Assembly (NCBI RefSeq): GCF_025244905.1
Contig: NZ_CP104285.1
Location: 1,240,001-1,304,000 of the forward strand
Direction: 5' to 3'
DNA: 64,000 nt
Source of the DNA: Enterobacter mori
Lineage (GTDB): Bacteria > Pseudomonadota > Gammaproteobacteria > Enterobacterales > Enterobacteriaceae
Position numbers and translations under genes: made by a program. Below the pieces are notes generated by a model. The model was not told the origin of the DNA. It worked only from the letters and a program-made list of their open reading frames with translations, and made no database searches. This document shows positions 13,161-45,413 of this stretch, one piece after another. How positions within the stretch are numbered: position 1 is the stretch's first letter; each line of letters begins with the position of its first letter.

Positions 13161-13307
13161 CTGATAAAACATTACAAACTGGCGAAAAAGTGCACTCCCG
13201 TTGAATCATAAAGGATAAAAATACGTCAGCGAAAATTAACGCGACTTTTATCACTTTTTAGCAAAGATCCGCTGGACAAAAGGTTCCACAATTGATGTAC
13301 TGATACC

Positions 13308-13332
13308 CGACACAGCATTTGTGTCGTTTTTT
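13308..13332 (+). terminator. Terminator-like hairpin upstream of cspE
   Basis: CGACACA / TGTGTCG with a 5-nt loop, followed by six T, ends 18 bp before the cspE ATG. It is either the pagP terminator, 148 bp after the pagP stop, or part of the cspE leader. Confidence 0.6.
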
Positions 13333-13350
13333 AATGTAAAGGTAATTTTG

Positions 13351-13560
13351 ATGTCTAAGATTAAAGGTAACGTTAAGTGGTTTAATGAGTCCAAAGGATT
13401 CGGTTTCATTACTCCTGAAGATGGCAGCAAAGATGTGTTCGTACACTTCTCTGCAATCCAGTCTAATGGTTTCAAAACCCTGGCTGAAGGTCAGCGTGTT
13501 GAGTTTGAAATCACTAACGGTGCCAAAGGCCCTTCTGCTGCTAACGTAATCGCTCTGTAA
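13351..13560 (+). CDS. cspE: CspE, cold-shock-family RNA chaperone
   Basis: 69 residues, by recall one substitution from E. coli CspE. RNP1 (KGFGFI) and RNP2 (VFVHF) are present in the single OB-fold domain. It binds single-stranded nucleic acid, melts RNA secondary structure and is known to act as a transcription antiterminator in E. coli. I chose the ATG at 13351, which gives the family length and has AAGG upstream. The gene has its own terminator. A terminator-like hairpin sits just before its SD, which is notable for a protein that melts such hairpins. Confidence 0.97.
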
Positions 13561-13584
13561 TTCAGACGCGTCAGCAAGAATTTC

Positions 13585-13613
13585 AAAACCCGCTCCTTGA
13601 GCGGGTTTTTTTC
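13585..13613. terminator. Intrinsic terminator after cspE (bidirectional)
   Basis: AACCCGCTC / GAGCGGGTT with a short loop and a seven-T run on the plus strand; AAAA on the other side lets it work for the minus-strand small gene too. Confidence 0.9.
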
Positions 13614-31070: not shown

Positions 31071-31110
31071 GTAAAAGCGCAGGTTTATTCCCTCCGCAGA
31101 AGGTAAAAGC

Positions 31111-31136
31111 AAAACGGCAACCATGTTGCCGTTTTT
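31111..31136 (+). terminator. Intrinsic terminator of ybeL
   Basis: AAAACGGCAA / TTGCCGTTTT over a CCATG-type loop, with a T-run, 40 bp after the ybeL stop. Confidence 0.85.
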
Positions 31137-31144
31137 AGTGTCTG

Positions 31145-31175
31145 CTCCCTCTCCCTGTGGGCTGAGGGATCCCCA
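31145..31175. repeat. C/G palindromic repeat, copy a (truncated)
   Basis: CCCTCTCCC-TGT-GGGCTGAGGG followed by ATCCCC. It matches, in inverted orientation, the copy at 32969-33002 including its TCCCCA tail, but lacks the outer CCCTCACCC arm that complete copies carry. Confidence 0.7.
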
Positions 31176-31187
31176 GTAATTTTTTTC

Positions 31188-31329
31188 CTGAAGCGATGAA
31201 GATTGCTTCAGAGAAATGAATAACTTACAGCGATGTCCTGGTCCGGCTGTAAATCGCTGAGGCGTTTCCTGTAGGCCGGGGCGAGGCGCATGGATGCGCC
31301 GAGAGGGCGGGCTTTACAGGGATAATGAG
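31188..31329. repeat. Hairpin-rich DNA left of the IS element
   Basis: Three successive inverted repeats: CTGAAGC / GCTTCAG (31188-31211), CAGCGAT / ATCGCTG (31228-31259), and CCTGTA / TACAGG enclosing GGCGCA-TGGA-TGCGCC (31269-31320). No ORF or known gene is recognisable. It may be one half of a repeat element into which the IS inserted. Confidence 0.5.
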
Positions 31330-31330
31330 A

Positions 31331-31407
31331 TGGACGCTCCAGATTTTGCGGTATCAAAGTACCAGACTGGATCGTTGCAATACGTCCTGAAAAATGAGGA
31401 GCGTCCA
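31331..31407 (+). promoter_or_regulatory. Inverted repeat that can mask the transposase ribosome-binding site
   Basis: TGGACGCTCC (31331-31340, the left IS repeat) is perfectly complementary to GGAGCGTCCA (31398-31407). The second arm contains the SD (GGAG) and ends one base before the ATG. In a transcript entering from outside the IS, the stem would hide the start site. Confidence 0.6.
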
Positions 31408-31408
31408 C

Positions 31409-32434
31409 ATGAAAGTATCAACTCTTGGTATCGACCTGGCAAAGAACGTTTTTCAGCTTCATGGTGTCGATCACGAAGGCCATACGGTTTTACGTAAGAA
31501 GCTGACCCGGGCTAAATTCGTTCAGTTTGTCATTCAACTGGAACCTTGCCTGATTGGCATGGAGGCCTGCTCGTCCAGCCATCATTTTGCACGATTATTC
31601 AGTCGTCACGGCCATGAGGTAAAACTCATCCCTCCGCAATATGTGAAGCCTTATGTGAAAACGAATAAGACGGATGCAGCAGATGCTGAAGCTATCTGCG
31701 AAGCGGTAACCCGCCCGAATATGCGTTTTGTGCAGATAAAAACCGAAGAGCAGCAGGCCGTTTTAGCGTTACACACTGAACGGGGAATACTTATCCGTGA
31801 GCGCATCGCCTGCTCTAACAGCTTAAGAGCTACACTTGCTGAGTTTGGTATTACGATGGCGACCGGGCAAAGTCATCTGATCTGTGAGCTGCCGGCCATT
31901 CTGGAGGACGCCGACAATGGGTTATCTCCCTTTGTCAGAGCCAGTATCCTCAGGCAGGCTAAACATATCAGGGCACTTGAGGAGCAGATAAAAGAGGTAG
32001 AAGAGGCCCTGGCCTCCTGGTATAAAACACAGGCGGCCTGCCAGAGACTGGCAAAAATCCCTGGGGTGGGCATGCTAACGGCCACGTATGTGGTAGCAGC
32101 AGTGGGTAATGCCCGACAGTTCAGTACTGCAAAACAGTTCGCCTCATGGCTGGGGCTGACACCAAAAGAACATTCCAGTGGCGGTAAACAGCAACTGGGC
32201 GGGATAAGCAAACGTGGAGATGGATATTTCCGATACCTTCTGGTTCACGGCGCACGGGCACTTACTGCCTGGGTCAACCGGAAAGGCTCAGTTGAGGAGA
32301 ATGCCTGGCTTCAGGGATTGCTTGAGCGGAAGCACTACAATGTTGCAGTTGTCGCGATGGCGGCAAAAACAGCGAGGATCATGTGGTCAATGTTGGCACA
32401 CAATACTGAATATCAACCTCGCCAGCCCGCCTGA
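31409..32434 (+). CDS. IS110-family (IS1111 group) DEDD transposase/recombinase
   Basis: 341 residues from the ATG at 31409, preceded by GAGGAGC. The N-terminal RuvC-like DEDD domain has Asp9 (GIDLAKN), Glu52 (GMEAC), Asp89 and Asp92 (KTDAADAEAI). A coiled-coil-like segment spans about 180-215. The C-terminal Tnp domain has GVGMLTATYVVAAVGN and EHSSGGKQQLGGISKRGD; by comparison with other IS110 enzymes the serine in HSSGG (256-257) is the likely nucleophile. The protein is intact, so the element may be active. IS110 enzymes are directed by an RNA from the element's non-coding end. Confidence 0.92.
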   Translation: MKVSTLGIDLAKNVFQLHGVDHEGHTVLRKKLTRAKFVQFVIQLEPCLIGMEACSSSHHFARLFSRHGHEVKLIPPQYVKPYVKTNKTDAADAEAICEAVTRPNMRFVQIKTEEQQAVLALHTERGILIRERIACSNSLRATLAEFGITMATGQSHLICELPAILEDADNGLSPFVRASILRQAKHIRALEEQIKEVEEALASWYKTQAACQRLAKIPGVGMLTATYVVAAVGNARQFSTAKQFASWLGLTPKEHSSGGKQQLGGISKRGDGYFRYLLVHGARALTAWVNRKGSVEENAWLQGLLERKHYNVAVVAMAAKTARIMWSMLAHNTEYQPRQPA

Positions 32435-32696
32435 CACAAGGTCAGTCAATCTGACGAGGTGCTGAAAAATGAGTTAACGTCCTGGTATGTGCAGGTGACT
32501 TCAGAAGATGGCAAAACAGGTAAGACCGCAGGCAGGATACACCGAGAGGTAACAAGGGCAAGTTAGCCCGTAGAGGATGATTGGTACCTGCCTGGCGGAT
32601 TTCATCATGGTTCGGGATAAAAAATCCCATCAGAAACCGGATATATGGCTGCACCTACCCGTTTTATTACCGAACTGAAGAAAACATTGCATTCCG
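32435..32696 (+). ncRNA. Candidate IS1111 guide (bridge/seek) RNA region
   Basis: The 262 bp between transposase stop and right inverted repeat carry no gene. They contain an 8-bp stem CAGGCAGG / CCTGCCTG (32529-32536 with 32587-32594) enclosing GGGC / GCCC (32556-32559 with 32566-32569). In the IS1111 group the target- and donor-recognising RNA comes from this 3' non-coding end. Exact RNA ends and guide loops cannot be set by eye. Confidence 0.55.
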
Positions 32697-32707
32697 GGAG
32701 CGTCCAT

Positions 32708-32900
32708 ATACGTTACCTCCGCCCGTCCCCGACAAGCCGGAAGGAATAAGCCGAAGGCACCGCGAAGCGGCGATTTACCGCCGGGAGCCCGGGTCGCCAG
32801 GGCGGCGGCGATTGAGCCGCCCTGGCACGTTCACAGGTCATGTCCTTACAGAGTAGCAAGCAACATAAAGTGAACGGAATGACCGCTTCAGCCGTATGTT
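32708..32900. repeat. Hairpin-rich DNA right of the IS element
   Basis: GC-rich sequence with an 11-bp perfect stem GCCAGGGCGGC / GCCGCCCTGGC (32796-32826) and shorter palindromes. There is no recognisable gene. Together with the left flank it may be a single interrupted repeat element or the remnant of another mobile sequence. Confidence 0.5.
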
Positions 32901-33002
32901 CCCCCTCACCCCAGCCCTCTCCCTCAAGGGAGAGGGGGTCGTCCGTGCTGGTATTATTTTGTGGGGAACCCTCAGCCCTGTGGGAGAGGGCCGGGGTGAG
33001 GG
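32901..33002. repeat. C/G palindromic repeat, copies b1 and b2 (inverted pair)
   Basis: b1 (32901-32938) contains CCCTCACCCC and CCCTCTCCCT-CA-AGGGAGAGGG. b2 (32969-33002) is an inverted copy ending GGCCGGGGTGAGGG. The pair ends two bases before the rihA stop codon and can form strong stems at the 3' end of the rihA message. Confidence 0.75.
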
Positions 33003-33004
33003 CA

Positions 33005-33946
33005 TCAGGCCGCACAATAGTAAGCCAGCCGCTCCGCCAGCAAATCCACAAATGCTTCCCGGTCGATATCCACCATCACCGTGGTATTCGGTTTATTTCC
33101 CGTCAGGGAGTAATAGTCCACCACCGTCATCCCCTGGGTATATTTGCCCTGTGTCTCCACACCGACCCAACGTTCCACCGTGGTAAACATCTCTGGTTTT
33201 AACAGCCAGGCAATGGTGCACGGATCGTGCAGCGGCGCGCCGTGGAATCCCCATTTCTCGGCTTTGTGATACTCCATAAAGAAATCGAGCAGTTCGGCCA
33301 CGGTTGTCGCAACCGGGTTACCCACCGAGCGGAAACGCTCAATATCGCCCGCCATAATCTGCGCGCGGTGGGTAACGTCCAGCCCCGCCATCACAATCGG
33401 TAATCCCGACTGGAAGACAATCTCCGCCGCTTCCGGGTCGACAAAGATGTTGAACTCCGCCGCAGGCGTCCAGTTTCCCAACCCCATTGCGCCACCCATC
33501 AGCACGATCCGGGCGATTTTACCGTGCAGTTCCGGATGGCTGTTCAGCAGCAGCGCAACGTTGGTTTGTGGCCCGGTTGCCACCAGCGTGACGGGCTCCT
33601 CGCTTTCGCGCAGCACCTTCGCCATCAGTTCGACGGCGGTACAGTTTTGCGGTCCAAACCCCGGCTCCGGTAGGGTAGGACCGTCCAGCCCGCTTTCACC
33701 ATGAACGTTGTCGGCAATAATCAGCTCGCGCATCAGCGGCTTCACGGCCCCGCCAGCGACAGGAATATCGGTGCGTTTGAGCAGCGTCAGCATGCGCAGC
33801 ACGTTGCGCAGGGTTTTTTCAGGCGTCTGGTTTCCGGCGGACGAGGTGACGGCTTTTACGTCAAGTTCGGGGGAGGCAAGTGCAAGGACGAGGGCGATCG
33901 CGTCATCATGACCCGGATCGCAATCGAGAATAATAGGCTGTGCCAT
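33005..33946 (-). CDS. rihA: RihA, pyrimidine-specific ribonucleoside hydrolase
   Basis: 313 residues from the ATG at 33946 ([15 protein letters not shown]), with GGAG eight bases upstream; E. coli RihA is 311. The calcium-binding DCDPGHDD near the N-terminus and the C-terminal aspartate and histidine region ([13 protein letters not shown]) mark the nucleoside hydrolase family. It cleaves cytidine and uridine to base and ribose in salvage. It stands alone between the IS region and gltL. A palindromic repeat pair follows directly. Confidence 0.95.
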
Positions 33947-36206: not shown

Positions 36207-36218
36207 AATAAACTCCAG

Positions 36219-36245
36219 AAAAAAAAGGGTAGCAGCGCTACCCTC
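36219..36245 (-). terminator. Attenuating terminator between gltI and gltJ
   Basis: AGGGTAGC / GCTACCCT with a 3-nt loop, followed on the minus strand by eight T. It probably allows more gltI than gltJKL transcript and forms the 3' end of the SroC RNA. Confidence 0.8.
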
Positions 36246-36380
36246 GAAGATTGGTGAGAAGCTCATTTTCGCGCTGAGTGGGGAACGACCACTCAACGTA
36301 TAGTCTGTCCATGCTTCCCGACAATCGAGAGGGCAGGAGATCCCGCCCCTGTCGTTCTAATTAGTTAAGCGCTTTATCGT
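36219..36380 (-). ncRNA. sroC: SroC-like sRNA from the gltI 3' region
   Basis: In E. coli and Salmonella SroC is released from the gltIJKL message between the end of gltI and the internal terminator, and it sponges the GcvB sRNA. The same architecture is here: the gltI stop at 36361, about 115 nt of non-coding RNA and a terminator with eight T. The 5' end near 36380 is approximate because it is set by RNase cleavage. Confidence 0.6.
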
Positions 36381-44713: not shown

Positions 44714-44788
44714 TGGCTGGGGTGCAGGGATTCGAACCCCGGAATGCTGGTATCAGAAACCAGAGCCTTACCGCTTGGCGACACCCCA
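44714..44788 (-). tRNA. glnX: tRNA-Gln(CTG)
   Basis: 75 nt with encoded CCA; anticodon CTG in TTTCTGATA. Compared with the next copy the acceptor stem has G7-C66 instead of A7-U66 and the T stem differs, with a G-U pair. Last tRNA of the array. Confidence 0.95.
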
Positions 44789-44825
44789 ATTGCGTTAAAC
44801 AGACTGCTTAACGACTTTTTTAAAT

Positions 44826-44900
44826 TGGCTGGGGTACGAGGATTCGAACCTCGGAATGCTGGTATCAGAAACCAGAGCCTTACCGCTTGGCGATACCCCA
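44826..44900 (-). tRNA. glnV: tRNA-Gln(CTG)
   Basis: 75 nt, CCA encoded, anticodon CTG, all stems paired (acceptor TGGGGTA / TACCCCA). Confidence 0.96.
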
Positions 44901-44944
44901 ACAATTTTTTCTAGTCTATCGAATAACTCGACAGATTACTAATT

Positions 44945-45021
44945 TGGTGGCTACGACGGGATTCGAACCTGTGACCCCATCATTATGAGTGATGTGCTCT
45001 AACCAACTGAGCTACGTAGCC
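44945..45021 (-). tRNA. metU: tRNA-Met(CAT), elongator
   Basis: 77 nt with CCA, acceptor GGCTACG / CGTAGCC, anticodon CAT in CTCATAA. It appears identical to metT. The paired G1-C72 end shows it is the elongator, not the initiator. Confidence 0.97.
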
Positions 45022-45038
45022 AGTACTGCAATCTTCGA

Positions 45039-45113
45039 TGGCTGGGGTACCTGGATTCGAACCAGGGAATGCCGGTATCAAAAACCGGTGCCTTACCGCT
45101 TGGCGATACCCCA
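45039..45113 (-). tRNA. glnW: tRNA-Gln(TTG)
   Basis: 75 nt, CCA encoded, anticodon TTG (TTTTTGATA). It appears identical to glnU. Confidence 0.97.
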
Positions 45114-45145
45114 ATACCGCGGAGAACCGCAAAATCGAAGAAATA

Positions 45146-45220
45146 TGGCTGGGGTACCTGGATTCGAACCAGGGAATGCCGGTATCAAAAACCGGTGCCT
45201 TACCGCTTGGCGATACCCCA
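45146..45220 (-). tRNA. glnU: tRNA-Gln(TTG)
   Basis: 75 nt, CCA encoded, anticodon TTG; a tandem duplicate of glnW with a 32-bp spacer between them. Confidence 0.97.
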
Positions 45221-45243
45221 TCCGTGCAACGCTTACCCGGGAA

Positions 45244-45328
45244 TGGTGCGGGAGGCGAGACTTGAACTCGCACACCTTGCGGCGCCAGAACCTAAATCTG
45301 GTGCGTCTACCAATTTCGCCACTCCCGC
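45244..45328 (-). tRNA. leuW: tRNA-Leu(TAG)
   Basis: 85 nt with a long variable arm, acceptor GCGGGAG, CCA encoded, anticodon TAG in GATTTAGGT. Confidence 0.97.
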
Positions 45329-45336
45329 AAAAAAGA

Positions 45337-45413
45337 TGGTGGCTACGACGGGATTCGAACCTGTGACCCCATCATTATGAGTGATGTGCTCTAACCAACT
45401 GAGCTACGTAGCC
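45337..45413 (-). tRNA. metT: tRNA-Met(CAT), elongator
   Basis: 77 nt with CCA, same sequence as metU. First tRNA of the array, about 30 nt downstream of the predicted transcription start. Confidence 0.97.

Follow-up and report, generated by a model that had tools for sequence, protein, structure and literature searches.

A conserved 3' RNA of an IS1111-type element that very probably guides insertion into a hairpin of TRIP1 repeats

The window, a 64,000-nucleotide stretch of Enterobacter mori DNA (NZ_CP104285.1, positions 1,240,001 to 1,304,000), carries on its forward strand an IS1111-type element of 1388 bp (31323..32710). Its extent follows from three identical copies in the source genome and from ends placed by comparison with relatives and with uninterrupted sites; the three copies also suggest that the element has moved recently. 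The left end reads TAATGAG-ATGGACGCTCC and the right end GGAGCGTCCAT-ATA. Comparison of the ends resolves these into a 7-nt left extension (TAATGAG, 31323..31329, +), which is a candidate donor segment, a left subterminal inverted repeat (31330..31340, +), and a right subterminal repeat with a 3-nt extension (32697..32710, +), the extension boundaries being set by uninterrupted sites except for one shared base, T. The repeats are perfect over 11 bp, as expected of IS1111 elements (~11-13 bp), and the extensions of 7 bp on the left and 3 bp on the right are likewise those of the group. Kluyvera has three related copies, and among 5426 complete E. coli genomes 172 have a match, 168 of them with at least 80% of the element's length; identity is 90-95% in 174 of the 175 E. 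coli matching records.

The element encodes a DEDD transposase of 341 aa (31409..32434, +). A single open frame runs to 32434; the mechanical listing of open reading frames starts it at an upstream in-frame ATG (31394, giving 346 aa), and we took the conserved ATG at 31409 as the start. The product matches the Pfam families DEDD_Tnp_IS110 and Transposase_20 and the NCBIfam entry 'IS110 family RNA-guided transposase' (E = 1.9e-108), and alignment of six proteins shows that D9, E52, D89 and D92 are invariant, residues that we take to be the DEDD set. Together, these features bear out the intact DEDD recombinase proposed in a preliminary description of this DNA. The sequence GLTPKEHSSGG fits the IS1111 motif GL-P----S(T)G, the length falls within the 330-350 aa of IS1111 transposases, and the solved structures that are similar in sequence are those of the ISCro4 and IS621 transposases (two distinct sequences). 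Downstream of the gene, as in other IS1111 elements, lies a non-coding region, here of 262 nt (32435..32696, +; delimited from the sequence and the ORF list), which is overlapped by mechanical ORFs.

This 262-bp 3' end had been described as structured, with an 8-bp stem that encloses a second hairpin. The stem is formed by CAGGCAGG (32529-32536) and CCTGCCTG (32587-32594) and closes a target loop (32529..32594, +), inside which lies a GGGC/GCCC hairpin (32556..32569, +; strands 32556-32559 and 32566-32569), as proposed. A further hairpin toward the 3' side (32609..32638, +) comprises an outer GGTT/AACC helix and an inner GGGAT/ATCCC helix (helices 6 and 7). The stability of the fold is unremarkable: the 262 nt fold at -74.3 kcal/mol with z = -1.40 (21 of 200 shuffles equally stable), and the 151-nt core with z = -1.81 (9 of 200). 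Single-sequence folding was dropped as proof of an RNA because of the z of -1.40; what sets the RNA apart is covariation. Compensatory changes affect 19 of 46 predicted pairs in an alignment of seven sequences. In a larger alignment of 59 matches (56 distinct rows), which was fitted to the structure and is hence biased in its favour, 91.1% of cells are paired as opposed to 66.5% in shuffled controls (0/500), the covariation score is 0.651 as opposed to 0.170 (0/500), and both-side changes occur in 27 of 35 pairs as opposed to 21.9. Sliding the structure by 1-3 columns lowers pairing to 32-43%. The number of further pair types is the one unexceptional measure of five (86 compared with 82.2 in shuffles, 57/500). 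Helix 2, the 8-bp stem, shows both-side changes at all eight pairs, and helix 4, the inner hairpin, is paired in 99.6% of cells and covaries at 4/4 pairs. The 3' region of homologous elements thus contains a conserved, covarying RNA. The conserved RNA spans 32507-32657; toward the two ends of 32435-32696 conservation is lower than in that core.

The core (32507..32657, +) was captured in a covariance model built on seven elements. Near-duplicates were left out of the seven-row model alignment (G087b, the second G027 copy, Kluyvera, other E. coli copies and the first G292 copy), as was the truncated G368. In two overlapping draws of genomes, the model hit 50 of 394 at the level of the order and 48 of 392 at that of the family, and loci were taken from part of these matches; the resulting 59-match set has 58 sources and excludes L067, L068 and L097-L099 as repeats of elements already present. 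Four of five further elements were matched, with ISKpn2 left unmatched; a Klebsiella element of 51% identity was matched at 1.7e-22, the seekRNA region in an element of the ISEc11 family at E = 2.3e-20, IS4321 at 4.8e-12 and ISShdy1 at 2.6e-5. No Rfam family occurs in the element at gathering score, and a permissive Rfam scan of 31100-33050 gave no match within it. For ISEc11, the transposase-bound seekRNA has been sequenced and its region is reported to be needed for movement (PMC11187229), such that the structured RNA described here is homologous to a sequenced seekRNA.

Resemblance to ISEc11 extends beyond the RNA core. As described for that element (PMC11187229), both have a downstream non-coding region, subterminal repeats, 7- and 3-nt ends and a T guide that precedes a B guide; the transposases are 42% identical. 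The two differ in their repeats and in their targets, which is GTGAAAATACTG for ISEc11 and a TRIP1 hairpin here. IS621 shares a sequence-related DEDD transposase and a non-coding RNA with target-matching guides (PMC11208160), whereas in its IS110 group, according to the accounts in PMC11187229 and PMC11208160, the RNA is usually encoded at the left end, with the two guides in reverse order.

IS1111 seekRNAs are described as carrying first a T guide, which pairs with the top strand, and then a B guide, which pairs with the bottom strand (PMC11187229). We compared guides with flanking DNA in the 33 of 59 elements that have resolved ends, the other 26 having been dropped because their ends could not be resolved. 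Across the 33, the T guide fits its own right flank over a mean run of 7.48, compared with 4.12 (sd 0.20) upon permutation (0/5000), and the B guide fits the left flank plus the element's first four bases over 7.52 compared with 4.78 (0/5000), or the left flank alone over 4.94 compared with 3.78 (0/5000). Swapping the roles of the guides gives no signal in three of four controls and a small excess in the fourth, in which the T guide is set against the left flank (4.73 compared with 4.02, 1/5000). Removal of similar guides leaves the result intact for both T (n=27, 7.30 compared with 4.07, 0/10000) and B (n=22, 7.84 compared with 4.70, 0/10000). The poorly fitting T guides, by run, belong to the ISYen1-family element L046 (4.0), L085 (4.0), L077 (4.0) and L083 (4.5). 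L046, from Yersinia, resembles the present element closely (68% nucleotide and 70% protein identity, with the same repeats and RNA core) but has another right flank. These 33 natural guide-flank pairs show how readily IS1111 RNAs are retargeted.

The same data weigh on the idea that the structured region is a regulatory sRNA or the 3' end of an mRNA and guides nothing. ISPpu9 offers a precedent, in that an sRNA, Ssr9, lies downstream of its transposase gene and has been suggested to influence expression (PMC8450116). An expression regulator, however, would have no need of loops that track the flanks of 33 elements, and the covariance model finds the ISEc11-family region; we consider this explanation very improbable.

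In the present element, the T guide GAGGTAAC (32546..32553, +) is complementary to GTTACCTC to the right of the insertion point, pairing over 8 nt with its own right flank and, one base longer, over 9 nt with TGTTACCTC in the E. coli sites. The B guide GGATGAT (32575..32581, +) is weaker: against the left junction GGA|TAAT it matches GGAT, then, after one difference, AT, so that the fit consists of GGA of the left flank and the element's first bases and becomes poorer further left. A candidate donor guide, TTCATCA (32601..32607, +), is partly complementary to the left extension TAATGAG and changes with the extension in some relatives, with modest support (deduplicated n=7, 161/10000). The expectation that loops would be complementary to both target and donor strands is therefore borne out for the T guide and right flank, as it is across the 33 relatives with T before B, is partly so for the B guide, and is only suggestive for the donor. 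The partial B fit could mean that the element descends from seekRNA elements but has a drifted guide and has lost efficient movement. Against such drift stand the three identical copies in the source genome, the intact reading frame and the T guide's fit of 8 nt (9 in the E. coli sites), and we think it unlikely.

The DNA into which the element has inserted is a TRIP1-like repeat. According to PMC10888264, TRIP1 repeats occupy five loci in E. coli and measure 146-273 bp. The left part of the interrupted repeat lies at 31251..31322 (+) and the right part at 32711..32822 (+); when joined, the flanks are 78.8% identical over 189 columns to TRIP1a (aqpZ-lysO) and TRIP1c (yohP-dusC) of E. coli K-12, loci that we located by the positions given in PMC10888264. 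The exact uninterrupted target exists in K-12 TRIP1a and TRIP1c and is absent at the partial K-12 copy TRIP1b (putP-efeU). Element-free yegH-asmA regions of two E. coli strains read TTTTACAGGGATGTTACCTCGCGCCC, and because these uninterrupted sites carry that sequence, insertion can be written as GGGA^TGTTACC without target duplication; in K-12, the repeat at yegH-asmA is missing its left half. Junction and orientation are identical in thirteen TRIP1-type insertions, which come from three hosts; this uniformity, together with the absence of duplication, is the specificity expected of an IS1111 element. The target, which the preliminary description had considered undescribed, is in fact a hairpin in TRIP1 repeats, and together with this RNA it provides a worked example of guide and target for an IS1111 element of Enterobacteriaceae. 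The flanking repeat had been considered as REP or similar, a candidate that was dropped when the yohP-dusC copy in strain N3 and the literature identified it as TRIP1; it was unmatched in a phage collection.

Two copies are exceptions to this specificity. L008, a plasmid copy outside TRIP1, has a right flank, TGTTACCTC, that matches the T guide along 9 nt, and a poorly matching left flank, a hint that the match on the right can be the dominant one. The truncated copy L141, also outside TRIP1, adjoins GCAGGGA. In the source genome, partial TRIP1-like repeats without the target hairpin are present at G000:C1 1418452, 1532604 and 2903211-2903658. A search of that genome left no target-pattern match with fewer than two mismatches; since the other TRIP1 pieces are partial and no near-exact target is left, all three full sites found are occupied. 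Among relatives, rejoining the flanks of L048, L074 and L075 gives what look like nearly perfect palindromes centred on a loop of GGGA or TGGA, and hairpin loops seem, from these flanks, to be a favoured kind of target. L092 sits in a terminator-like (rho-independent) sequence, AAGCTTCGGCTT | TTTTTT, with guides that fit over runs of 9 and 9.

Taken as a whole, these observations are best explained if 32435-32696 encodes a seekRNA (also called bridge RNA) that belongs to an IS1111-type element and is aimed at the TRIP1 hairpin, a reading to which we assign a probability of roughly 0.93. The proposal that a guide RNA arises from the 3' end of the element has thereby gained a covarying core, a match to the ISEc11-family region and guides that track flanks in 33 relatives. 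The anatomy of the element, the conserved RNA structure, the guide-flank match across relatives, the target and the uninterrupted site are direct observations; transcription, RNA binding, circle formation and catalysis we infer from published relatives. By that analogy, the ends of an excised circle would abut to form a promoter, with TATAAT spanning the junction and a weak -35 element (9/12, a score computed without a chance control, for what is a candidate promoter); in the integrated element, a scan detected no promoter before the transposase gene on the gene's strand. A transcript from the circle promoter would carry both transposase and RNA, the RNA, expected for an IS1111 seekRNA to measure 70-100 nt and to be required for movement, would bind the transposase, and the target loop would expose both guides. 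The T guide would then pair with the top strand to the right of the insertion point and the B guide with the bottom strand to the left, and such pairing would direct entry at one site, GGGA^(T/C)GTTACCTC, in the TRIP1 hairpin, in one orientation and without duplication. This mechanism is already published; the link to inversions and the third repeat copy set out below look new. We found no report of either, or of the target, in a literature search that had most subscription papers and the IS databases outside its scope.

The distribution of the element in E. coli bears on large inversions that have been attributed to TRIP1. Six more copies were taken from E. coli: the truncated L141 and five others (L142-L146), which lie between genes that are non-adjacent in K-12, in the order dusC-element-aqpZ or lysO-element-yohP; L006 (yohP-dusC) and L007 (yegH-asmA) are not rearranged. 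These five are TRIP1a x TRIP1c recombinant junctions, that of SMS-3-5 included, a strain whose 1.3-Mb inversion has been ascribed to TRIP1 (PMC10888264). The E. coli relative at these junctions is ~92% identical to the present element. Scanning 5426 E. coli genomes with a 1900-nt joined query, which covers one TRIP1 orientation, we found the lysO-TRIP1-yohP junction in 50 genomes, with an IS110-family transposase inside all 50 (SMS-3-5 and IAI39 included); a shorter query, which cannot span the element, found an element-free version of this junction in 0/5426. The dusC-TRIP1-aqpZ junction occurs in 83/5426 genomes, with the element in 59 of the 60 matches listed and hence in at least 59 of 83, and the short query found it without the element in one of 5426 (KFu014). 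Long and short queries combined would place the element in 82 of 83. In KFu014 (NZ_CP091712.1, H218 and H347), one recombinant junction is filled and the reciprocal one empty, which could reflect either that one copy was lost or that an empty site recombined with a filled one. All junction counts are uncorrected for kinship of the genomes.

We consider it quite probable, and prefer this reading, that the inversions arose by homologous recombination of element copies that lie inverted in TRIP1a and TRIP1c, and not through the short TRIP1 repeats or the recombinase. All 50 lysO-yohP junctions hold the element and none is without it, the dusC-aqpZ junction has it in 59 of the 60 matches listed with one junction lacking it, and the element is present in 172 of 5426 genomes overall. 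The genomes are, however, related and the counts uncorrected for this, the dusC-aqpZ figure rests on 60 of 83 matches, and one TRIP1 orientation is covered. In the published interpretation (PMC10888264), TRIP1 repeats alone caused the inversions, which would require the element to have come later or by descent. The element-free junction of KFu014 agrees with that interpretation, but element-free junctions number 0 and 1 of 5426 even though 5254 of the 5426 genomes have no element match, and we judge it improbable. A term search of the main text of PMC10888264 found no transposase, and that paper was the only one found that links TRIP1, rearrangement and IS110. IS621 is reported to invert DNA in engineered assays (PMC11208160), so inversion guided directly by the RNA is conceivable, though unproven. 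In its fullest form, transposase and RNA would act as a natural RNA-guided invertase that, besides inserting, flips E. coli segments of more than 1 Mb at element-bearing TRIP1 sites, with expression kept low by a terminal-repeat lid on the mRNA; we judge this improbable. Recombination between copies of the element, our preferred reading, offers an alternative cause for published megabase inversions (TRIP1a x TRIP1c), with K-12 holding both target sites empty.

The proposed lid would arise from a third copy of the terminal repeat, GGAGCGTCCA (31398..31407, +), which overlaps the ribosome-binding site of the transposase gene. The predicted leader of the transposase mRNA (31332..31411, +; z = -3.16) consists of an outer stem and two hairpins, with the start codon just outside. 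In 29 of 33 elements with a recognised start codon (L102, L106, L110 and L084 were dropped; L102 and L110, which are ISEc11-like, thus fall outside this scoring), the mean run of complementarity to the element's own left repeat is 6.52 compared with 4.86 upon permutation, the highest of 10000 permutations being 5.86. A run of at least 7 directly before the start codon occurs in 12 of the 29, compared with a permutation mean of 3.2 and maximum of 9, and a wider scan of all 33 elements gives 6.92 compared with 5.58. Such runs span several different repeats, reaching 12 nt in L112 and 9 in L093, L078 and L074; in the group with TGATGTG ends (L081, L085, L101, L103, L115, L117, L087 and L090) they are only 3-5. 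Six leaders fold alike, with an outer stem, two inner hairpins and the start codon outside (z from -1.6 to -5.2), these six and a set of 13 being chosen examples. The third copy at the ribosome-binding site co-varies with the ends in the window (31330-31411) and in L112, L074, L078, L093 and L048.

From this pattern we propose that the third copy may serve as a lid on translation: the left repeat would fold back on it at the ribosome-binding site and keep transposase synthesis low, a self-limiting control that would tie the element's DNA ends to translation of its transposase. Alternatively, the third copy could be a transposase binding site at the start of the gene. In the present element the ribosome-binding site is predicted to be unpaired at 0.20 with the left repeat and 0.27 without it, and so is largely paired either way. 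A predicted leader structure likewise buries the ribosome-binding site of the IS110-family transposase of ISPpu9, where weakening of the leader is reported to have raised translation (PMC8450116). That leader is 244 nt long and opened by an antisense RNA (PMC8450116), whereas the one described here is ~80 nt and has the terminal repeat as its predicted outer stem. A literature search found no report of a leader hairpin in IS1111 elements.

Palindromic CCCTCTCCC.../GGGAGAGGG repeats flank the TRIP1-like repeat on both sides (31139-31170 and 32896-33010), and these palindromes attract spurious microRNA matches in the permissive Rfam scan. Known RNAs elsewhere in the window comprise the cspA thermoregulator, sroC, the rnk leader and seven tRNAs (13250-13612, 36214-36365, 1500-1608 and 44717-45413).
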